The notes below the pieces were generated by a model, which was given only the letters and a program-made list of their open reading frames with translations, was not told the DNA's origin and did not search any database. A stretch of DNA of 26,447 nucleotides from positions 122,694 through 149,140 of the forward strand of contig QZLH01000092.1 in NCBI GenBank assembly GCA_003833135.1, read 5' to 3'. Positions 1,602 through 26,447 of the stretch are shown piece by piece; within the stretch, counting starts at the first letter, position 1; every line of letters starts with the position of its first letter. Source of the stretch: Oehlia diaphana. Its lineage: Eukaryota; Glomeromycota; Glomeromycetes; Glomerales; Glomeraceae. A program made the translations under genes and the position numbers.

Positions 1602-3886
1602 TCAAAATCCATCTAAAGATAAAAAATAACAAATTATAAATTAATTATTTGCTTTAAAAAGAAATCTTATTAAGAACTTACCATCAGGAATTTCCAATTC
1701 ATCTTGTTCTTTCGAATGAAGATTTGGATTATTATATACTTCGTCTTCATCTATAAGAAAATAAACATACTTAAAATAGTATAAAAATTGTTTGTTATTA
1801 CGTAAAATTTTCACCTACCATCGACATGTTGTTGAGTTATTTTCTTTTCATCATCTAAATTTTAAATAAAAGTCGCGTTAAATAAATGAAATTTATATGG
1901 TAATTTTATTCGTTAATAATTTACTTACCATTTGAATTTATTTGTAGCTTTATAAATTCTTCGGGTAATTTTTTACTATCACCTAAAATTAAGATATAGA
2001 TTTAATATATAAATCAATCTCGACTTGGACAATAATTAAAATACATTACCTCTAAAAATAGTATTTACTTTTGATGATTTGCTATTTTGCTTATTTGATT
2101 TATTAAAATCGTTAACTAAAATAATATCAATTATTAAACATCATTATATAATAATTCAACGCTGTAATGTTAATAATTACTTACTATTGTTAGGAATGTT
2201 AAAATCATACAATTTACTATGAAAAACTATTAAGTAGTAAAATAAAGTATTTTAAAAATTAAATTATTATAGTAACCAAAAAATGGTAGAAATTATTATT
2301 TATATGATGGTTATACCTTCTTGTTCTTCTGTTATAATAAAAAGATAACATTAATAATGTATTTTTAAATAAATATATTCATTAATAAAATATTATACAC
2401 TTATACCTTCTGTTGCATTTCTTGGTTCAGGTAGATTTTCAAAGTCGTGAATTTTACTTGTAAATAATCTGCTACTCGTATAATTTTCTTTTACTTTATT
2501 CATTTCTAAATTATTCATTTCTGATTTGAATAATTCATCTGACATATTTTGATAACAAAAATTAATTTTTTGTATTTTTTTACAAAGTGTATTAGCGTCA
2601 GGTCTTTTTAATGGATCAGCATCCCAACATTCTTTCATTAAATTTTTATATTCTAATGGAGTTCCTGGCACAATTTTTGGTCTTATACCGTTAATAATAT
2701 TCATTACAATATCATTTTCATGTTCATAATTTATAAATGGTGTTTGTCCAGATGAAATTTCCCACATAAGAATTCCAATACTATAAATATCAGATGCAAA
2801 AGTATATTCTCTTCCAACAATAACTTCGGGTGCTATGTAAGGAAGATTTCCATATATACTTGTTGAAGATTTATCTGCAGGTCCACAAAATCCAAGATCA
2901 CTGATACACCAACGATTATTAAGTTGAGAATATAATATATTTCCAGAATGTAAATCTCTATGAATTGCTTTCTCTTTATGAATATAATAAAGTGCCTGAG
3001 TTATGTAATAAGTAATATTAATTCTCTTTTTCCATGTAAGTTGATTATGATTTTGTTGTAAATATTTTCTTAAATCTATATTCATTTTCATCATTACAAG
3101 CATATAATTTCCATTTGATGGATTTTGCGTTAAACCATAACATCGAACAACATCCACCCATTTATTACTTATAGTTAAATGTGATTTAGCCTAAAAGGCA
3201 ATAATTTGTAAAAATGCTCATATTAACATAAAGCATAATTTTATACAATAAATTTAAAATATAATAATACAAACCTCATCAAACCAACTTTGATTTGCAC
3301 TTTCGACATTTTCTAATTTTTTAAGCACTACATTTGCCACTATGTATTGAATTCCAGGTCTTTCAACTCTTTTTAATTGTTTTTTTTCAGTATCCCATTC
3401 GTCATACCACCCATAAATCCAATCCGCTGTATAAATTTCTGAGAATCCACCTTTTGTTAAATAATTAATATTTTTTAAATTACTATATGGTATCCATTCA
3501 ACTACCTTATTTGGCATAAGTGATTCCATTTGACATTTTTGTATTAAATTATCAATATCATCATTACCAGATGTCCAATTTAAAAAATTTTCTTTTAAAT
3601 AATTTCGAACACAATATTCACAATAAAATGTGGCTAAACATTCTTGGTTACAATTTTCACAAATTCTTTTTATACCATCATTTAATATAACTTTATTTCG
3701 ATCATAATTTTTAGTTAACCATCTTATTGCATAAGTTTTTTCATCATTTGTAAGAATTTTATCAGCAAGGACTGTTTGTTTTTGAAATTCCAATTGTTTG
3801 TGTATATCATTGTAAATATTAGTATCTGTTAATGTATTTGCTCTATTAGTTGTTGCACCAATTAATTCATATCGAAGAGTGGACAT
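1602..3886 (-). CDS. TKL-type protein kinase with N-terminal Cys cluster and multi-exon tail (9 exons, 561 aa)
   Basis: Predicted serine/threonine-type kinase. Exons: 3275-3886, 2407-3190, 2317-2328, 2185-2226, 2050-2115, 1929-1982, 1819-1854, 1682-1750, 1602-1612. The spliced length is 1686 nt, exactly 562 codons, which supports the model. A Cys cluster lies at residues 76-92 (C-x2-C-x3-C-x5-C-x2-C), followed by W-T-S-G-N-D-D-I-D. The glycine-rich loop is K-G-G-F-S-E-I-Y (145-152), the beta3 lysine K189 and the alphaC glutamate E204, which is the last residue of exon 1. HRDLHSGN starts at 281, D-L-G replaces DFG at 302-304, and APE is at 324-326. I chose the ATG at 3886 (M-S-T-L-R-Y-E) over an upstream in-frame ATG at 3970 because this N-terminus is typical of the family as I recall it. 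The catalytic residues are intact, so it is probably active. The tail is built from phase-1 mini-exons. Confidence 0.85.
2317..2328 (-). other. 12-nt microexon
   Basis: On the minus strand the 12 bases AAGAACAAGAAG lie between an acceptor (...TATAACAG) and a donor (GTATAA). They add E-E-Q-E across phase-1 junctions. The same 12 bases with the same acceptor occur in the duplicate copy at 770-781. Confidence 0.6.
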
Positions 3887-3997
3887 AATGTAATCAATAA
3901 GAAAGAAAGAAATAATTATTTTAAGTTCGTTACTCCGAGATAAATTAGCAAAATGGTGATCAAACTTCATGTTGTGTCCACATAAATTTTGTGATCT

Positions 3998-4021
3998 TGA
4001 GGCGTAGTATTTTACGCCTCA
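3998..4021. promoter_or_regulatory. 9-bp inverted repeat upstream of the kinase start
   Basis: TGAGGCGTA and its reverse complement TACGCCTCA are separated by 6 bases, about 110 bp upstream of the kinase ATG at 3886. It is GC-rich compared with its surroundings. It could be a protein-binding site in the promoter; no function is shown. Confidence 0.3.
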
Positions 4022-7000: not shown

Positions 7001-7059
7001 CTCATTAAATTCTTTATCGAATATTGTTGAATCTACTCAAGTAATAATTTATTCGTACT
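4022..7059. other. Intergenic region, no gene supported
   Basis: The open frames here are short, AT-driven and without recognisable domains. The stretch contains a 42-bp dispersed motif (4632-4673) and a cluster of GTACCGATA motifs (6038-6287). The last 300 bp should contain the promoter of the kinase at 7060, but I see no clear core element. Confidence 0.5.
6038..6287 (+). repeat. Cluster of GTACCGATA motifs
   Basis: GTACCGATA occurs exactly at 6091-6099, 6106-6114, 6122-6130 and 6279-6287, with a near copy (GTACCGAGA) at 6038. The first three are 15-16 bp apart. They may be binding sites or the remains of a decayed repeat. Confidence 0.4.
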
Positions 7060-8713
7060 ATGGATCAATCAAATATAGAAGAACAAAAATATGGAAGATG
7101 TATAGGATGTAAACAAATAAGTACATCACTCTTATGTTATACTTGTGATTCAATTTTTAAAGGGAGAAAATCTGGAAAGTGTATAGTATGCAAACAAATA
7201 AAGCAAAAAGCTAAGGGAACAATAACATGTCATACTTGTTATTCAACTTCTCAAGAACAAAAATATAGAAGGTGTATAGAATGCAAGCAAATAAATACTG
7301 GAAAGGACTGGTGTCAAACTTGTAACTCAAAAAGATTTCAACAAAATTTTAACAATTGGACTAGTAATAATGATGATATTGATAAATTTATTCAAAATAT
7401 TCAATTATCAGCAAGAAATAAATATCAATTATTAGAGTGGATACCCTATGATAGATCTTCTGAAATTGTATATGTTGCAAAAGGAGGATTTGGTAAAGTA
7501 TATAAGGCAATATGGCAAGATGGCAAGATATCACATTGGGATGTAAGTAAAAATCAATGGGAAAGAAATAGTACGCGTATGCACGTAGCTCTTAAAAGTT
7601 TAAATGACTCACAGAACCTCAAATCACAATTTATCAAGGAGGTACAAAATTGGGTTTATTGAATTTTTTCGAAATATTTTTTGTTTTTGCAAATTATAAT
7701 AAATTTTGATAATTTAGATTACATCACAACTCAAAATAGTTGAAGATAGACCACTGGACCAATTTATTAGTTGCTATGGAATAAGTCAAGACCCAAATAC
7801 AAAAGAATATATTATGGTTATGAAATTTGCTGATTGGGGAGGTTTGCGAAATTATTTTGATATGAGAGAAAAATATAAAAAGAAATTGCGTGAAAATGAC
7901 CTCTATTTGAAATTGAGACGTAAAATTATTGTTTTTGATTGTATTGCATCTGGACTTAAGAGAATTCATGTAAAAGGATTAATTCATAGAGATTTACATA
8001 CCGGAAATATAGTATGTTTTAAAAGTATGATTTGTATAACTGATATGGGATTATGTAAACCAGCAAATTATGAGGAATTAGAAAATACAGAAAATAATGC
8101 GTATGGAATTTTACCTTATGTAGCACCTGAGGTTTTAAGAGGAGAACATTATACACAAGCATCTGATATTTATAGTTTTGGCATAATTATGTATGAGGTA
8201 ATTTCGGAAATGCCACCATATTATAATATTAATCTTTAGCAGTAGAGATCTGTAAAGGGTTAAGACCCAATTTTAATATTAAAGTACCACAATTAATCAT
8301 TGAATTAATTAAGAAATGTTTAGATGCAAAACCATCAAATCGACCAAATGCAAAGGATCTTACAAGAATTATTAAAGAATTAATGAGAGATTTTAATAGA
8401 CGCAAACCAGAATTAATTAAACAAATTGAAGAAATAAGTAATAATTTGTCAGATTTACCTTCAATGAATAAAATGAATACGATGCATTCTGGAGCTATAT
8501 ATACAAGTAGATTACTTAGTTTTAAAAATCTTCCCGAACCGATAAATTCTGATGATTATTATGAATATTTTGATAATATAACGAGTATGAAATATTCAGG
8601 TATTTAAAAAATAATCTTACTTTATTACTCATTCAATCTACTTATATAAACTAATATTTCATAAATATTTTTATGTAATGACAGAATGTTTGGATTGTGA
8701 AGTTAAAGATTGA
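7060..8713 (+). pseudogene. TKL-type protein kinase with triple CxxC motif, one frameshift
   Basis: Exons: 7060-7641, 7718-8599 and probably 8685-8713. Three tandem C-x2-C...C-x2-C motifs (C14-C29, C41-C60, C72-C88) look like small zinc-binding ribbons. W-T-S-N-N-D-D-I-D follows at about residue 100. The glycine loop is K-G-G-F-G-K-V-Y (141-148), with beta3 lysine K179 and alphaC glutamate E194 as the last residue of exon 1. HRDLHTGN starts at 284, D-M-G is at 303-305, and A-P-E-V-L follows. After P-P-Y-Y-N-I-N the frame stops at 8237-8239; the rest of the C-lobe (L-A-V-E-I-C-K-G-L-R-P to N-R-P-N-A-K) resumes from 8236 in another frame, consistent with one missing base. The tail A-I-Y-T-S-R-L-L is typical. 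The short last exon gives E-C-L-D-C-E-V-K-D-stop, resembling Q-C-L-D-Q-A-I-stop of the gene ending at 20630. All catalytic residues are intact, so this is either a young pseudogene or a sequencing error. Confidence 0.75.
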
Positions 8714-13771: not shown

Positions 13772-16767
13772 TTATTGTTCCTATCAGAATAAATATATTT
13801 AATCAATAGTTTATATTAAAATTTAAATAAGCAAAATAAAAAAAAAATAAATATTTACCAATTCTTTTTTTATATTGTTAATATTTTCTGATACTTTATG
13901 TATACCATCATTTCCTTGATATAATTTATACCATTTTAAAGCTTTTCCTTTATTTACTGGTAGTTGATTATCTAAAGCATCTATACCATATTCATAACAT
14001 ATAGCTAAAAAATATTGAGAGGGTATAAATCCATTTTTAGCAGAATTTTTATATAATTCATATGCTTTAAAATTATTTTTTTGTATACCATAACCACATT
14101 CATAAAAATTTGCAAGATAATATAAAGCTATATTACATCCATTATTAGCAGCAATTTGATAAAATTTAAATGCTTTTTTGAGATCTTTTTTAATACCATA
14201 TCCATAATGATAACACCTTCCAACATGAAAATAACCATTTATAACATTATGCTGACTGGCATGTGTATACCACTTAAAAGCCATATCCATATCTTTATCG
14301 ACTCCAAACCCTTTAAAATGAAAAATTCCAATAATCACTTTATAATGTTGTGTAGCTTGATTATTAGCAAAATAATTCAAAATTTCGCGTGATTCTGCCT
14401 TATAATTTTCCAAAAATTTATAAAAATCGAAACTCTTTGTAAATCCATTATTGTGATATTTTAAATAAGCTTGAAAAATTTCCTCTAAAAGAGTATCTGA
14501 TAATACAACATTAATATTATTAATAAATCTTAAGCAAATCATCAATAAATAAATATGTACTTACTAGTTTGATTTTCAGTTTGATTAACGCTTTCATCCT
14601 CGTTAATGTTAGACGAAACGGGTGATGATGGCGGAGGTGTATCTAAAAATACAACATTAATATTATTAATAAATCTTAAGCAATCATTAATAAATAGATA
14701 TGTACTTACTAGTTTGATTTTCAGTTTGAATAACGCTTTTATTTTCATTAATGTTAGACGAAACGGTTGATGATGGTGGAGGTGTATCTAATAAAACAAC
14801 ATTAATATTATTAAATAAATCTTAAGCAAATCATTCAAATACTTAACAAATAAATAGCTACTTACTGGTTTGATTTTCAATTTGATTAACGCTTTTATCT
14901 TCATTAATGTTAGACGAAACGTGTGATGATGGCGGAGGTGTATCTAAAAATACAACATTAGTATTATTAATAAATCTTAAGCAAATCATTAATAAATAAA
15001 TATGTACTTACTAGTTTGATTCTCAGTTTGATTAACGTTTTTATCCTCATTAATGTTAGATGAAGCGGGTGATGATGGCGGAGGTGTATCTAATAATACA
15101 ACATTAATATTATTAATAAATCTTAAGCAATCATTAATAAATAAATATGTACTTACTAGTTTGATTTTCAGTTTGAATAACGTTTTTATCCTCATTAATG
15201 TTAGACGAAACGGGTGATGATGGTGGAGGTGTATCTAATAATACATTAATATTATTAAATAAATCTTAAGCAATCATTATTAATAAATAAATATGTACTT
15301 ACTGGTTTGATTTTCAGTTTGATTAACGCTTTTATTCTCATTAATGTTAGACGAAACGGGTGATGATGGTGTATCTAATAACACAATATTAATGTTTTTA
15401 AATAAAATTTTAAACAAACCAACAATAAATAAATGTGCACTTACCAGTTTGATTTCCAGTTTGACTAAAATCAGATGAGATGGATGATTTTCTTTCGTTC
15501 TCAATATCAAATGAAACAGATGATAATGGTGTACCTAATAACGTATTGTCATTAGTATATGTAAACAAATATAAAATAATATATTGTACTTACTGATTTG
15601 AAAATCACTTGATTTTGATGATTGAGATTGTGTTTCACTATAATTATTATCAGTAATCTCCGAATAGTCTTCATTATCAGTATTAAATTCTAAAGAAATT
15701 TTATTTAATATATCAAAAACATCATCAATAGTCGGTCTTAAATCTGGATTATCATCCCAACATTTCTGATAAAGATCTACATAAGATGAAGGTGTGTCGA
15801 TTATTGGCTGTTCTCTATAACCCATTGCGATTTTATAACCTAAAATTTGAATTGGAATGGTTGAAAAAGGCGGATATCCACTTGAAATTTCCCATAAAAG
15901 AACACCTAAACTGTAAACATCAGACTTTTTATTTCTAACATAGTTGTCAGTTTTATAACATTGTGGTTCGACATATGCTGGCATTCCATAAATTTTTGAA
16001 ATTGACGTAACATCGACAGTCGTTTGTTTAGATAATCCAAGGTCCGCAATCATCAATTTATTATCATTAACTAATATATTTTTTGCGTGCTATAAACAAA
16101 ATAAAAAGAAATAAAATTTTAAGTTTAAAATTTATATTAAAATAAAATAAATTTTATATTACCAAATCTCTATGAATTATTTCTCTAGAATGCAAACACT
16201 TCAATCCCAATGTAATATCCAAAGCCATTTGAATTTTGTCTTTCCATTGAAGTGAAGCAAAGTTATCTTTTAAATAATCTCTTAAATTTCCCTGATTGGC
16301 GTAGTGTAATACCATAACATAATTGTTTGACGACGGCTCTAAACCAAAAATTAGTTAAAATACTATTTTTTTTTTAAAAAAAAATGTATAAAATATTATA
16401 TCATTTACCTTTGGTAATTCCAAAACACCGGTTTATATTTGGATGAAAATTGACCTTTCTTAAATTCTTTAACTAATTTAAGATACAATAATAATAAAAT
16501 TTAGGCTTAATACTAACTACAGTATCATATTCAAAATTAATTACGTACCTCTTTAAGAAACTTGTTCATATTATCTTCATTGATTGAAGAATTGCTTGCA
16601 AGAATTTTTAATGCTACTTTACTTCTACAACTTTTCCAATCAGCTCTATTTACTATTCCGAAGGCTCCATTATCAATTTTTTTCATATTGCTAAATTCAT
16701 TATACTCGAAATAATTGATATCATCATCTTTTATTTTATTGTCAATCCATTCATTTGGTGATATCAT
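13772..16767 (-). CDS. Kinase-linker-Sel1 repeat protein (13 exons, 717 aa)
   Basis: Exons: 16549-16767, 16409-16472, 16163-16338, 15594-16089, 15445-15534, 15303-15374, 15157-15234, 15012-15089, 14866-14943, 14710-14787, 14565-14642, 13859-14496 and, less surely, 13772-13780. They sum to 2154 nt (718 codons) in one frame. Kinase domain: loop D-N-G-A-F-G-I-V (32-39; first Gly is Asp), K54, E73 ending exon 1, HRDLHAKN from 150, D-L-G at 169-171, and V-E-P where APE is expected. Residues 319-502 form a Ser/Pro/Asn/Glu-rich, probably disordered linker made of seven tandem exons. Residues 503-715 hold about four Sel1-type repeats (F-K-G-F-G-V, Y-H-Y-G-Y-G-I, Y-E-C-G-Y-G-I, Y-E-Y-G), alpha-helical units that usually bind proteins. 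The likely role is signalling, with the Sel1 part recruiting partners. Kinase-Sel1 fusions are common in these fungi as I recall. The end (E-L-E-Q-stop) depends on a 9-nt terminal exon. Confidence 0.82.
14565..15534 (-). repeat. Seven tandem phase-1 cassette exons forming the linker
   Basis: Seven exons recur about every 145 bp. Five are 78 nt (14565-14642, 14710-14787, 14866-14943, 15012-15089, 15157-15234), one is 72 nt (15303-15374) and a diverged one is 90 nt (15445-15534). Each starts after an AG acceptor with AT-ACA-CC (GT-ACA-CC in the 90-nt exon) and ends CAAACTA or CAAACTG before GTAAGT. The protein unit is T-P-P-P-S-S-P-V-S-S-N-I-N-E-D..., ending Q-T-E-N-Q-T. Introns are 67-78 nt and repeat along with the exons. 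All are symmetric phase 1, so any number can be included or skipped in frame. Confidence 0.85.
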
Positions 16768-17293
16768 ATTTAAGAATAATGTGCAAAGGATTTAAACTTA
16801 GCCTAAATCGTTTTTTGTAAAAAAAAAATTTAGCGTCTTAGGAATTTGACTTTTTATGTTGATCAATAGCCGCAATGCTATTTTCGTCAATGAATGAAGC
16901 ATGCAAGGACTGATTTTCATACGATTGTGATTTTGTTCGTAATACAAAGAGGACACGTGCATGAAAGACAATCCACGTGATTTTTTCACCACCGGTGTCC
17001 GGTGTCACACTCACCGAATTTCCAACGAAATTTTTAGTAAAAAAAAATCCTATTCATCACACACTATATCAAACGCACGCCATACTTAAAGCTATTTCAT
17101 GACATTTTTTCGTGTACAATACAGAGGTAAAACGAGAATTTTTGAAATAATGATTAAAACTTATAAAAGTTTGAGGACATTTATATGGACCTTACCGATT
17201 AATAATAAAATAATTCTTGATAGGCTCTTGATAGGTATCTTGTTATAACGAAATACAGAAATAACATAAATACATAATTGGTAAAAAGATCAT

Positions 17294-20629: not shown

Positions 20630-23600
20630 TTAGATTGCTTGATCTAAACATTGAGAATTATCATCATATTCTGGAAGGTCTTCTGTAAAAGGGTTAAGTA
20701 ATCGTGATGTGTAAATAGCTTGTTCATGGGTAACTACTTGGTAATTTTCAATGGATGAAAGATTTGCTTTTCTATATTCTTCTGCTTTCTTAAATTGCAT
20801 TCCAATTTCTTCATCTTCTGTGGAAAAATCCACCATATATGACTTATGTAATGACTCAATTAATTTATTTATACTAAAAATATCTGGTCTATTATTCGGG
20901 TTTAAATCCCAACACTTTTTCATTAAATCAATATAACATTTTGGTGCTTCTGGTTCATTTATTTCAGGTCTAACTCCTTTACAAATATCTAATGCAAGAA
21001 GATGATCATGTGCACGATTGCAAAAAGGTTGTTTTCCAGTTGCTACAAAATACATTATCATACCAAAACTATAGATATCTGTTTCCTGGGTATAAGGCCT
21101 CCTTCTCAATACTTCAGGAGCCACATAAGGCATAACTCCATAGATTTTAGTTTCATCTATATCTATTTCACCAACCTCTCCACATAATCCCATATCCGAA
21201 ATTGATATCCAATCCTCAAAATTATGCATTTTACTTAAAAATAATATATTTCCTGTATGAAAATCACGATGAACTATACTTTTTTGATGAATTTCTTTAA
21301 GGCCACTAATAATATTGAGCAGTGCAAGTAGTTTATCTTTCCAATTAAAATATTCATAGTTTTCATTCATCCAATGATTAAAATTGCCTTCTGCTGCATA
21401 TTGGAGAACCATAACATATTCTTTCGTATCTGGACGTTGAGATATTCCGTATATATTAAGAATATTACTTCCTATATTTATTGAGTATTTTTTAACCTAT
21501 TAAATATTTAAATAACAAAAAATAGTTTAAATAAAGAATTTTTCTATTAAAATGATTTTTAAAAAATTTCATACCTCATTAAAAAAATTATTACTGATAT
21601 TTTGTGAGTTATGTAAGCATTTTAAGGCAAGTATTTTATTTGGTTTCCTTATATATATATTTTTATTTGTATCATATTTTAATGGACCATTTTTCCAATT
21701 TGCAGAATATACTGTAGCAAAGCCACCTTTACCTACTTCCTCAAAATTGTTGAACTGATTATATGGTATCCATTCAACCACTATATCATCACATTTATTA
21801 ACTTTAAATTGCATTTCTTGAATGAAATCATCAATATTTTCATTTCCACTCGTCCACATAAGAACTAGAATATAATCACCTGTATCTGGATTTTGAGATA
21901 TTCCATACAATACTTGAAAAGCTTTATGGTTTGTAGGATAGATTTTAGCCTAAATATAAATAAAGAGATTGTAAACATATTACTAATTATTAAAAAAAGT
22001 ATTAAATACTTAAAGAAATTTCATACCTCATTTATTAAAGAATCAATAGATTCTTGTGAATTATGTAAATATTTTAAAGCAACTTTTTTATTTGAAACCC
22101 TTTTATAATTTTTGTCATCCTGATGCTTTTTGTGTAATGGACCATCCTTCCATATTGCTGAATATAATCTAATAAGGTCATTTTTGCCTGTTTCTTCAAT
22201 TTCATTAAACTGATAGTATGGTATCCATTCAAGTATTATATCATTATAATCATTAATTTTAAGTTGCTTTTCTTGAATGAAATTATCAATTTTTTCATTT
22301 CCACTAATCCAATTTATCAAATTTATAGTATAATTTTGAACAAAAATGTGTATCTGGATTTTGAGATATTCCATACAATACTTGAAATGAATTATGTCTT
22401 TTTGGATATTTTTTAGCCTAAATATAAATAAAAGAGATTGTAAATATGTTAAATACGTTAATAATTAAAAAAATATTTAAATATTTGAAGAAATTTCATA
22501 CCTCAGTTATTAAAGAATCAATGGATTCTTGTAAATTATGTAAACATTTTAAAGCAACTTTTTTATTTGAATCTCTTGTATAATATTTATCATCCTGATG
22601 CTTATTATGTAATGGACCATCCTTCCATATTGCAGAATATAGTGCTATTTGGCCATTTTTTCTTGTCTCTTTAATTTCAATAAACTGATTGTATGGTATC
22701 CATTCAAATACAATATCATTATATTTTTTAATTTTTAATTGCATTTCTTGGATGAAATGATCAATTTTTTCATTTCCACTAATCCAATTTGCCATGTTTA
22801 TAGTATAATTTTGAACCAAAATATAATCTCCTGTATCTTTATTTTGAGATATTCCATATAATGCTTGAAATGCATCATATACTATTGAATATTTTTTAGC
22901 CTAAGTATAAAAAAAAAAAAGTTGTAAATATATTTAACTAAAAAATATTAAATATTTGTAGAAATTTCATACCTCATTTATTAAAGAATCAATTGATTGT
23001 GAATTATGTAAATATTTTAAAGCAACCTTTTTATTTGAATCTCTTGTGTACTCATTAAACTGATAATTTAATGGACCATCTTCCCATATTGCAGAATATA
23101 TTGTTATGAGGCTATTTTTGCCTGTCTCTTTAATTTCATTAAACTGATTGTATGGTATCCATTCAAGCACTATATCACTATGGTCATAAATTTGTAATTG
23201 CATTTCTTGGATAAATTCATCAATTTTTTCATTTCCACTTGTCAATATATAATTGTTTTGAACTAAAATATAATCTTCTGTATCTGGATTTTGAGATATT
23301 CCATATAATTTTTGAAATACTTTATATTTTGTTAGATATTTTTCAGCCTAAGTAAAAATAAAGAATGTAAATATATTATTTAAAAAGTATTAATATTTGA
23401 AGAAATTTCATACCTCATTTATTAAAGAATCAATTGATTCTAAACATTTTAAAACAACTTCTTTACTTGATTCTCTTGTATGCATATTATACAGTAATGA
23501 ACTATCCTTCCATATTGCAGAATATATGCCATTTTTGCCTGTTTCTTTAACTTCATAAAACTGATTGTATGAAATCCATTTAAGTACTATTTTATAATGG

Positions 23601-26447
23601 GCATTAATTTTTTGGATGAAATCATCAATTTTTTTACTTTCACTAATCAAATTTGTCAAATTTATAGTATAACTTTGAACTAAAATATAATCTTTTGTAC
23701 TTTGATTTTGAGATATTCCATACAATACTTTAAATGCATCATATTTTGTTGAATATTTTTTAGCCTAATATAAATAAAAAAAGGTTATAAATATATTAAT
23801 TAACTTTCAATCAGTATGTAACCTATATAAATAGTTAAATATTTGAAAAAATTTCATACCTTATTTATTAAAGAATCAATGGATTCTTGTGAATTATGTA
23901 AACATTTTAAAGCAACTTTTTTATTTGAATCTCTTGTATAATTTTTATCATACTGATGCTTTTTGTGTAATGGACCATCCTTCCATATTGCAGAATATAA
24001 TGTTACAAGACCATTTTTGCCTGTTTCTTTAATTTCATTAAACTGATTGTATGGTATCCATTCAAATACTATATAATTATATTTATTAATTTTTAGTTGC
24101 ATTTCTTGGATGAAATCATCAATTTTTTCATTTCCACTAATCCAATTTGTCAAGTTTATAGTATAACTTTGAACCAAAATATAATCTCCTGTATCTTGAT
24201 TTTGAGATATTCCATATAATACTTGAAATGATCCATTGTCTGTTAAATATTTTTTAGCCTAAATATAAATAAAAGTGATTATAAATATATTAATTAAAAA
24301 AGTATTCGTATAGTTGAAGAAATCTAATACCTCATTTATTAAAGAATTAATGGATTTTTGTGAATTGTGTAAACATTTTAAAGCAACCCTTTTATTAGAA
24401 TCTCTTGTATAATTTTTATCCTCATACTTTTTGTGTAATGGACCATCCTTCCATATTGCAGAATATACTCTTATAAGGCAATTTTTGCCTGTTTCTTTAA
24501 TTTCATTAAATTGATTGTATGGTATCCATTCAAGCACTATATCATAATTACCATTAATTTTTAATTGCATTTCTTGGATGAAATCATCAATTTTTTTATT
24601 TCCACTTGTCAATATATAATTATTTTGAACAAAAATATAATCTTGTGTATCAGGATTTTGAGATATTCCATATAATATTTGAAATTTATCATCTTTTATT
24701 AGATATTTTTTAGCCTAAATATAATTAAAAAAAGGTTATACATATATTAATTAGAAAAATATTTAAATATTTGAAGAAATTTCATACCTCATTTATTAAA
24801 GAATCAATTGATTGTGAATTATGTAAATATTTTAAAGCAACCTTTTTATTTGAATCTCTTCTATACTCACTATCTCCTGTGTACTCAACATACTCACTAT
24901 ACTGATGGTATTTGCGTAATGGACCATCCTTCCATATTGCAGAATATATTGTTATAAGGCCATTTTTGCCTGTCTCCTTAATTTCATCAAACTGATTGTA
25001 TGGTATCCATTCAAGCACTATATCATCAAAATTATTAATTTTAAGTTGCCTTTTTTGAATGAAATTATCAATTATTTCGTTTCCACTATTCCAATTTGTC
25101 AAGGTTATAGTATTACTTTGTACCAAAATATAATCTCTTGTATCTTGATTTTGAGATATTCCATACAATACTTGAAATGTATCATATTCTGTTGAATATT
25201 TCTTAGCCTAAAATAAAAAAGATTGTAAAATATTTAACTAAAAAATATTAAATATTTGAAGAAATTTCATACCTCATTTATAAAAGAATCAATTGATTGT
25301 GAATTATGTAAATATTTTAATGCAACTTTTTTATTTGAATCTCTAGTATAATCACTCCATTTATATTTTTTTAGTAATGGACCATCCTCCCATATTGCAG
25401 AATATATTGTTATCTGTCCATTTTTGCCTGCCACTTTAATTTCATTAAACTGATTGTATGGAATCCATTCAAATACTATATTATATCCATTATTTTTTAA
25501 TTGCATTTCTTTAATGAAATTATCAACTTTTTCATTTCCACTTGTCCATAAATAAGTATTTTGAACAAGAATATAATCTCTTGTATCTGGGTTTTGAGAT
25601 ATTCCATATAATATTTGAAATTTTTCATCTTTTATTAGATATTTTTTAGCCTAATAAAAAGAGATTGTAAATATATTAATTAAAAAAGTATTTAATTATT
25701 TGGAAAAATTTCATACCTCATTTATTAAGGAATCTATAGATTGCAAATTGTATAAACATATTAAAGCAATTTTTTTATTTGAATCTCTTCTATACTCACT
25801 ATCTCCTGTGTACTCAACATACTCACTATACTGATGGTATTTGCGTAATGGACCATCCTTCCATATTGCAGAATATACGCCATTTTTACCTGTTTCTTTA
25901 ATTTCATCAAACTGATTGTATGGAATCCATTCAAATACTATATTATATCCATTATTTTTTAATTGCATATCTTTAATGAAATTATCAACTTTTTCATTTC
26001 CACTTATCCATATATAATTATTTTGAACAAGAATATAATCTCCTGTACCTGGGTTTTGAGATATTCCATATAATATTTGAAATTTTTCATCTTTTATTAG
26101 ATATTTTTGTGCCTAATAAAAAGAAATTGTAAATATATTAATTAAAAAAGTATTTAAATATTTGAAGAAATTTCATACCTCATTTATCAATAAATCTATG
26201 GATTGTAAATTATGTAAATATTTAAAAGTAACTTTTTTATTTGAATCTCTTCTATACTCACTATCTCCTGTGTACTCAACATACTCACTATACTGATGGT
26301 ATTTGCGTAATGGACCATCCTTCCATATTGCAGAATATATTGTTACCAGACTATTTTTGCCTGTTTCTTTAATTTCATTAAACTGATTGTATGATATCCA
26401 CTCAAATACTATATTATTATATTTATTAATTTTTAATTGCATTTCTT
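20630..26447 (-). CDS. Multi-N-lobe TKL kinase gene: at least 11 tandem N-lobe exons feeding one C-lobe exon (partial, 5' end outside)
   Basis: The terminal exon (20630-21496, 288 aa) encodes V-K-K-Y-S, beta4-beta5 (Y-G-I-S-Q-R-P-D-T-K-E-Y-V-M-V), HRDFHTGN from residue 76, D-M-G at 101-103, A-P-E-V-L at 126-130, and a tail with Y-T-S-R-L-L ending Q-C-L-D-Q-A-I. Upstream lie eleven exons of 351-420 nt (the outermost cut by the window edge). Each begins with an A-K-K-Y-like beta4-beta5 segment, then N-W-x-S-G-N-E-K-I-D, W-I-P-Y-N-Q-F, a glycine-loop region, V-A-L-K and N-E before the donor. All complete ones are multiples of 3 in phase 0 except 22027-22417. Introns are 65-95 nt. No unit has a convincing start codon, so transcription probably begins beyond 26447. 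The nearest unit plus the terminal exon makes a kinase with all key residues. Constitutive splicing would give a protein with many N-lobes and one C-lobe; exon skipping would give variants. I cannot tell which. Confidence 0.8.
21575..21949 (-). repeat. Array unit 0: canonical N-lobe exon (125 codons)
   Basis: It begins A-K-I-Y-P and contains M-W-T-S-G-N-E-N-I-D-D-F. It is the only unit with a good glycine loop (V-G-K-G-G-F-A-T-V-Y). The beta3 lysine is in L-A-L-K-C and the last codon is the alphaC Glu. An in-frame ATG at 21857-21859 could start a short kinase. Confidence 0.85.
22027..22417 (-). repeat. Array unit 1: frameshifted N-lobe exon (391 nt)
   Basis: It has the same splice borders as its neighbours, but after Q-N-P-D-T about 8 nt are missing relative to the other units. 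The frame from the acceptor reaches TAG near the W-I-S-G position, while the N-lobe half stays open in another frame. Loop: G-K-N-D-L-I-R-L-Y. Confidence 0.8.
22502..22900 (-). repeat. Array unit 2: N-lobe exon (133 codons)
   Basis: Open from A-K-K-Y-S-I to T-E before GTATG. The loop R-K-N-G-Q-I-A-L-Y has lost its first glycine; V-A-L-K is kept. Confidence 0.8.
22973..23347 (-). repeat. Array unit 3: N-lobe exon (125 codons)
   Basis: Starts A-E-K-Y-L. It has a shortened N-N-Y-I-L-T-S-G-N junction between beta5 and the N-lobe start. Loop G-K-N-S-L-I-T-I-Y; V-A-L-K and N-E are kept. Confidence 0.8.
23414..23764 (-). repeat. Array unit 4: shortest N-lobe exon (117 codons)
   Basis: Several in-frame deletions. 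The glycine loop collapses to G-K-N-G-I-Y-S-A-I-W, and the segment between the beta3 lysine and alphaC is shortened (V-V-L-K-C-L-E-S-I-D). Confidence 0.8.
23860..24258 (-). repeat. Array unit 5: N-lobe exon (133 codons), alphaC Glu changed
   Basis: Open throughout. The last codon before the donor is AAG (Lys) instead of GAG (Glu), so the alphaC salt-bridge residue is lost. Loop G-K-N-G-L-V-T-L-Y. Confidence 0.8.
24331..24714 (-). repeat. Array unit 6: N-lobe exon (128 codons), variant donor
   Basis: Open throughout. The donor reads GTATTA instead of GTATGA, so read-through would not stop at once. Loop G-K-N-C-L-I-R-V-Y; beta5 joins T-S-G-N by the short N-N-Y-I-L link. Confidence 0.8.
24788..25207 (-). 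repeat. Array unit 7: longest N-lobe exon (140 codons)
   Basis: It carries an insertion reading R-K-Y-H-Q-Y-S-E-Y-V-E-Y-T-G-D-S-E-Y between W-K-D-G-P-L and the beta3 strand, shared with units 9 and 10. Loop G-K-N-G-L-I-T-I-Y; V-A-L-K is kept. Confidence 0.8.
25273..25650 (-). repeat. Array unit 8: N-lobe exon (126 codons)
   Basis: Open throughout and lacks the Tyr-rich insertion of its neighbours. Loop G-K-N-G-Q-I-T-I-Y; V-A-L-K is kept. Its first half is nearly the same as unit 9. Confidence 0.8.
25717..26112 (-). repeat. Array unit 9: N-lobe exon (132 codons), beta3 Lys lost
   Basis: Starts A-Q-K-Y-L. The glycine loop is shortened to G-K-N-G-V-Y, like unit 4. The beta3 motif reads I-A-L-I-C, so the ATP-anchoring lysine is replaced by Ile. 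It carries the Tyr-rich insertion. Confidence 0.8.
26179..26447 (-). repeat. Array unit 10: N-lobe exon cut by the window edge
   Basis: Only the second half is visible. It has the Tyr-rich insertion, loop G-K-N-S-L-V-T-I-Y and V-T-F-K at beta3. The array therefore continues beyond the window. Confidence 0.75.

Follow-up and report, generated by a model that had tools for sequence, protein, structure and literature searches.

A protein kinase is normally viewed as a two-lobed unit, and a gene in which one lobe is repeated many times ahead of a single copy of the other raises the question of what it encodes: one protein with a chain of N-lobes, or a kinase whose ATP-binding lobe is chosen by splicing. 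Such an arrangement lies in the window (the whole stretch of 26,447 nt analysed here, C92:122694-149140), taken from an assembly of 108.8 Mb in 1672 contigs. Translation and exon modelling of the minus strand (26447-20630) show eleven N-lobe exons in a row, ten of them complete and the outermost truncated where the contig stops, ahead of a single C-lobe exon (Table 1). The same units had been listed in the first-pass annotation, and the nine lengths divisible by 3 given there are identical to those found here. Nine of the ten complete N-lobe exons keep the frame and have phase 0 at both borders; in the remaining one, of 391 nt, the frame shifts within the beta4-beta5 region, which would truncate the protein unless this unit is skipped. 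Tandem Repeats Finder (TRF) reports a period of 462 and 9.9 copies for the array. The last base of the window is the end of contig C92, which therefore ends inside the array; the 5' end of the gene is missing, and the earlier count of "at least 11" units is correct.

Table 1. Exons of the window array, listed from the C-lobe exon outwards.
Feature	Positions in window	Strand	Basis
C-lobe exon (beta4-beta5-hinge, catalytic loop, SDMG, APE, to stop codon)	20630..21496	-	open frame; PF07714; AG acceptor
Terminal N-lobe exon, 375 nt; sole KGGF glycine-rich loop in window array	21575..21949	-	exon model; unit alignment
N-lobe unit, 391 nt, frameshift, broken	22027..22417	-	one unit read in two frames
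Upstream N-lobe exon, 399 nt, phase 0	22502..22900	-	exon model
Upstream N-lobe exon, 375 nt, phase 0	22973..23347	-	exon model
Upstream N-lobe exon, 351 nt, phase 0	23414..23764	-	exon model
Upstream N-lobe exon, 399 nt, phase 0	23860..24258	-	exon model
Upstream N-lobe exon, 384 nt, phase 0	24331..24714	-	exon model
Upstream N-lobe exon, 420 nt, phase 0	24788..25207	-	exon model
Upstream N-lobe exon, 378 nt, phase 0	25273..25650	-	exon model
Upstream N-lobe exon, 396 nt, phase 0	25717..26112	-	exon model
N-lobe exon cut by contig end (= window end)	26179..26447	-	exon model; contig limits

The single C-lobe exon with HRD, D-M-G and APE motifs that had been noticed at first reading carries them as HRDFH, SDMG and APE, and matches PF07714 with an E-value of 4.6e-32, the match starting only at profile position 61. 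In the terminal N-lobe units of the modelled loci (n = 11), the first glycine of the glycine-rich loop is present in 10, and the second glycine, the beta3 lysine and the alphaC glutamate in all 11. When three window N-lobe exons (one terminal, two upstream) were compared singly with Pfam, none of them had a match at E 0.01, so domain counts can miss N-lobes of this kind. For the public homologue P0078, a relative and not the window protein itself, which also matches PF07714, the nearest solved structures are Roco4 in the top four rows (best row E 5.9e-23, residues 426-694), followed by a mixture with CaMK1G, MAP3K9, RIPK1, and B-Raf. By motifs, profile, and nearest structures, the terminal N-lobe and the C-lobe together are a putative tyrosine-kinase-like (TKL)/PF07714-type protein kinase. 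The array is not a series of whole kinase domains: no C-lobe was found between the units in the 12 modelled arrays, and none of 120 public proteins (the best 120 of 653) has more than one C-lobe.

Splice sites were picked by a script among GT/AG candidates near the expected ends, with phase ignored. Since the script looks for GT/AG, the presence of splice sites alone is no evidence, and the frame is. In the 12 loci modelled in the source genome, a hand count of units uncut by a contig end or N found 90 of 96 non-first units in frame, from phase 0 to phase 0; the cut pieces (one each in C92, C1214, and C889, two in C113) were left out, one C113 unit (378 nt, phase 0 on both sides) was counted as in frame, and three of the 90 (two at C567, one at C113) came into phase only with a second choice of donor. 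Six units are broken, one in C92, one in C12, two in C889, and two in C60b, and the limits of two of them that are much altered (one in C60b, one in C889) are unsure. The 107 introns, modelled with 40-200 nt allowed, have a median length of 72 nt (range 60-101) and leave remainders 0/1/2 modulo 3 in 39/32/36 cases. Compared with this even spread, the conservation of frame in the exons exceeds chance. Of the introns flanked by intact exons on both sides (n = 85), an in-frame stop occurs in 81, a length not divisible by 3 in 53, and neither property in one. One repeat per exon and introns in one phase is the arrangement of an exon-encoded tandem repeat protein.

The array recurs in the same genome. 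The genome was searched with one unit and with a longer, Cys-containing unit type, the best 150 scored matches of each search were taken, and both sets were clustered with a gap limit of 1300 bp. The pooled matches fall into at least 98 clusters, at least 63 of them with two or more matches, at least 44 with three or more, and at least 21 with five or more. Seven modelled loci were followed upstream, and a Met-bearing first N-lobe exon was found in five of them (C60a, C716, C113, C1307, and C412); at the other two, C567 and C12, a neighbouring kinase was matched first. With the first exon counted, the number of N-lobes is, for example, 15 (C60a), 13 (C412), 8 (C567), 6 (C716), and 6 (C1307). 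A further array at C905 (L026, L027) has a Met-bearing first exon, and its 3' end breaks off within a unit and continues into other sequence; in 2.8 kb of sequence read at this site, no C-lobe of the array type was found. On contig C60, the array nearest the start is broken. C379 and many of the clusters obtained with the Cys-containing query form a sister array type, in which the units have a Cys-rich (zinc-ribbon-like) segment before the N-lobe; as in the main array type, the terminal unit of C379 is the only one there with an intact glycine loop.

Proteins of this layout already stand in the databases. The listed relatives, where named, come from Rhizophagus irregularis, R. clarus, R. diaphanus, and Glomus cerebriforme (the best 120 of 653 and the best 120 of 855), on contigs that reach 5.3 Mb. 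Among the best 120 of 653, each protein, a prediction from a gene model, combines 4-15 N-lobes with no more than one C-lobe. In many cases the name is missing or reads "uncharacterized" or "kinase-like domain-containing"; some carry the names of yeast kinases, such as Tpk3p, Ste11p, or Rad53p. The terminal unit and C-lobe of C1214 are 97% identical to an R. irregularis protein, which places the source genome close to Rhizophagus. For those of the window the best match among 171 listed proteins is 79%, and for its nine complete intact units 64-81%, with no one-to-one partners. A public orthologue of the window gene had been sought for the sake of its 5' end; given these values and the lack of unit partners, none is claimed. 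BCS1_N, GxGYxYP_N_3rd, and LINES_C pass the curated Pfam cut-offs on N-lobe repeats of P0119 and P0078. Names of this kind were taken as probable chance matches, and automatic annotation of such repeat proteins may mislead.

Structure prediction with AlphaFold2 for two public relatives gives chains of N-lobes (pLDDT 79 and 75). The structural comparison of the 762-residue model spans only its C-terminal kinase (range 407-731), so a protein with N-lobes only was folded separately, and in that run without a C-lobe three of five models were poor. In Foldseek, JAK chains are the top two matches for both models, with a superposition that is poor overall (rmsd above 20 Å).

We consider it probable, with room for doubt, that the window holds one TKL-type kinase gene in which the N-lobe exon has been amplified in tandem, giving a chain of N-lobes capped by one kinase domain. 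The region would be the 3' part of this gene. Each exon starts just past the alphaC glutamate. It first completes one N-lobe with the remainder of alphaC, beta4, and beta5, and then supplies a linker helix, beta1 to beta3, and the first part of alphaC for the N-lobe that follows. Since the units begin after this glutamate, phase-0 exons joined via the short introns give a chain of complete N-lobes. If the units are expressed and spliced into one mRNA, the protein would consist of a short leader, many non-catalytic N-lobes and then the catalytic TKL-type domain. The last N-lobe, with its glycine-rich loop, and the C-lobe would form the sole complete kinase domain, which is probably active. The poly-N-lobe protein that the first-pass annotation had offered as one of its two readings is supported by the serial N-lobes of the public proteins, from the Met-bearing 5' exons, and from the predicted folds.

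The distribution of the glycine-rich loop separates the terminal unit from the others. Among 98 aligned units (11 terminal, 8 first, and 79 internal), the second glycine is present in 11/11 terminal but 1/87 upstream units, where asparagine is usual at this position (77/87), and KGGF is found in every terminal unit. Both loop glycines occur in 10/11 terminal units and 1/87 others (Fisher p 8.6e-12, a value that overstates independence, as the units and the proteins are mutually related). The public proteins repeat this pattern: in those with a C-lobe match of more than 150 profile positions (77 of the best 120 of 653), the second glycine is present in 76/77 terminal and 32/535 upstream N-lobes, gaps being counted as absence. 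In the 43 proteins of that set that have no such C-lobe match, it is present in 30/423 units, some of which look like terminal units of models without a C-lobe. Without the loop, catalysis in the upstream units is unlikely, and its loss would be in keeping with a role in binding or regulation. The upstream N-lobes, nearly all of which lack the second glycine, are probably non-catalytic beads. The beta3 lysine is still retained in 80/87 and the alphaC glutamate in 67/87 upstream units, which is not expected of wholly inert beads; these residues may be structural or may reflect residual nucleotide binding. By analogy with pseudokinase-kinase pairs such as JAK, the bead chain would most likely bind or regulate on behalf of the terminal kinase. 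In a tree of the 98 units, one clade (support 96/90) unites eight of the eleven terminal units. Those of C889 and C412 sit beside this clade, along with two internal units, and that of C379 falls among the units of its own array; the terminal units overall are thus not one clade. Upstream units tend to cluster by array or by a few arrays jointly in this tree, which has few columns and many open forks.

The alternative that survives best is that the units are singly optional, so that the number and kind of upstream N-lobes vary between transcripts while the terminal N-lobe and the C-lobe stay constant; we regard this as unlikely, though it has to be reckoned with. Short introns are usually spliced by intron definition, where exon skipping is uncommon, and the introns here are of such a size. 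Intact units have phase 0 on both sides, so any of them could be skipped without loss of frame, and the broken window unit could be skipped harmlessly; however, constitutive splicing needs symmetric phase equally. Two public R. irregularis models on equal-sized contigs, P0018 and P0032, differ in nothing but a 38-residue piece of one unit. The difference is either exon-level variation, as optional units would produce, or just that of two gene models. Brown algal ROCO genes reportedly undergo alternative splicing of their tandem LRR exons (PMC11378527).

It is also conceivable, if improbable, that only the terminal N-lobe and the C-lobe matter and that the array is decaying, a neutral debris of unequal crossing-over. 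The broken units, the C905 array in which no C-lobe was met and the broken array on C60 point this way, as do the NG86 dN/dS values between upstream units, with medians of 0.47-0.89 in ten arrays. These are high, so that constraint is modest; they indicate weak purifying selection on average, possibly with diversification mixed in. However, upstream units of one array have a mean identity of 72% (range 37-93%), and 90/96 units keep their frame despite residue differences of 7-63%. The core motifs are near invariant and the loops variable: when 74 of the 79 internal units are compared, excluding the four from C379 and a divergent one from C412, mean entropy peaks in the beta2-beta3 loop (1.69 bits), followed by the alphaC-to-beta4 stretch (1.38), and is 0.84-1.16 elsewhere. 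The Met and leader on the first exons of several genes also speak against debris. Terminal units are 58% identical to the upstream units of their own array and 63% among themselves. In the preferred reading, that of a functional chain of N-lobes in one gene, the unit number would shift through exon gain and loss. C889 has 19 non-first units, 17 of them intact, and its best public match, P0049 (89% over the terminal unit and C-lobe), has 8 by motif count; unit number thus seems to change.

The other reading of the first-pass annotation, in which splicing varies the ATP-binding lobe, fares worse. In Dscam-type genes, tandem arrays of similar exons stand ahead of a constant exon and are mutually exclusive. 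A choice of this kind, with one N-lobe exon per transcript, would agree with similar tandem exons that can each be joined in frame to the C-lobe exon. The glycine loop, however, is nearly confined to the unit beside the C-lobe, both in the modelled loci and in the public proteins, and this is a strong argument against splicing choosing the N-lobe partner of the C-lobe: the exons do not appear interchangeable at the constant exon. The same pattern speaks for non-catalytic N-lobes in a chain that ends in one catalytic domain. The separate clade of eight terminal units and the public models that join 4-15 units in series weigh against it as well, and we consider it very improbable. An assembly artefact, which had been raised when the array was first noticed, or a stack of separate kinase genes is scarcely credible: C92 ends within its array and some other arrays border N gaps, but the units differ from each other, the array recurs on many contigs and in public proteins on ones as long as 5.3 Mb, and no C-lobe was found between units of the 12 modelled arrays; the artefact was rejected on recurrence and unit divergence.

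In the JAK family and the wheat tandem kinases, the part upstream of the kinase is a whole kinase-like domain, usually in one copy. The N-lobe array would resemble them in placing a non-catalytic, kinase-derived part ahead of an active kinase domain in one chain, and differs in that the repeat is confined to the N-lobe, of which a complete model (C60a) has as many as 15 copies. PMC8449880 deals with whole tandem kinase domains and does not mention Rhizophagus. A second likeness is to the brown algal LRR-ROCO genes, for which tandem in-phase LRR exons, exon shuffling, and a proposed rapid diversification of the binding surface are described in the part of PMC11378527 available. Both systems have one repeat unit per exon and exons in a single phase; the algal unit is a 72-bp leucine-rich repeat in phase 2, whereas here it is a kinase half-domain of 351-480 nt in phase 0, permuted with respect to the domain, and no immune role is claimed for it. 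The expanded PF07714 kinases of Rhizophagus irregularis and other arbuscular mycorrhizal fungi are of the same family and genome type as the window gene. As far as the available parts of the papers go, 2,533 members were counted in this repertoire (PMC10234402, 2023), PF07714 was the commonest motif among inflated genes (PMC6123716, 2018), and kinase expansion was reported in PMC8647823. Nanopore RNA reads of R. irregularis DAOM197198 are also described in PMC10234402. The available parts of PMC10234402 and PMC6123716 treat the kinases as counts or domains and do not mention the repeated N-lobe exons or the loop restriction described here, and the layout is not in that of PMC8647823. Nor was a description of tandem kinase N-lobes found in the literature searched (open-licence, titles and abstract openings), which agrees with the initial remark that no description of a kinase with this layout was known, even though such proteins are in the databases.

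That half the kinase fold has been copied over and over, and the ATP loop retained in the copy next to the catalytic lobe, suggests that the N-lobe may be a stand-alone repeat. The arrays also matter for the kinase expansion of arbuscular mycorrhizal fungi, which is still unexplained. More tentatively, and with doubt outweighing confidence, one may suppose that the N-lobe now acts as an independent repeat module in Rhizophagus and Glomus. Its chains, of up to fifteen or more mostly non-catalytic units, would provide a single catalytic kinase with a rapidly evolving array for recognition or docking. Gain and loss of exons and the variable beta2-beta3 and alphaC-beta4 loops would diversify this array, as possibly would optional exon inclusion. 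Whether N-lobes fold and bind without a C-lobe, and whether the array is a recognition surface, become testable questions.

Other kinase exons or genes that belong broadly to this family lie elsewhere in the window, at 846-1193 and 2393-4018 (-), 7048-8607 (+), and 15535-16791 (-), one of which has a Cys-rich N-terminus. A second exon array was observed at 14493-15468 (-), flanked on the minus strand by a kinase C-lobe (16089-15535) on one side and by a Sel1-repeat exon (14560-13823) on the other; its six exon-like units of 72 or 78 nt, all multiples of 3, encode a Pro/Ser/Asn-rich linker.
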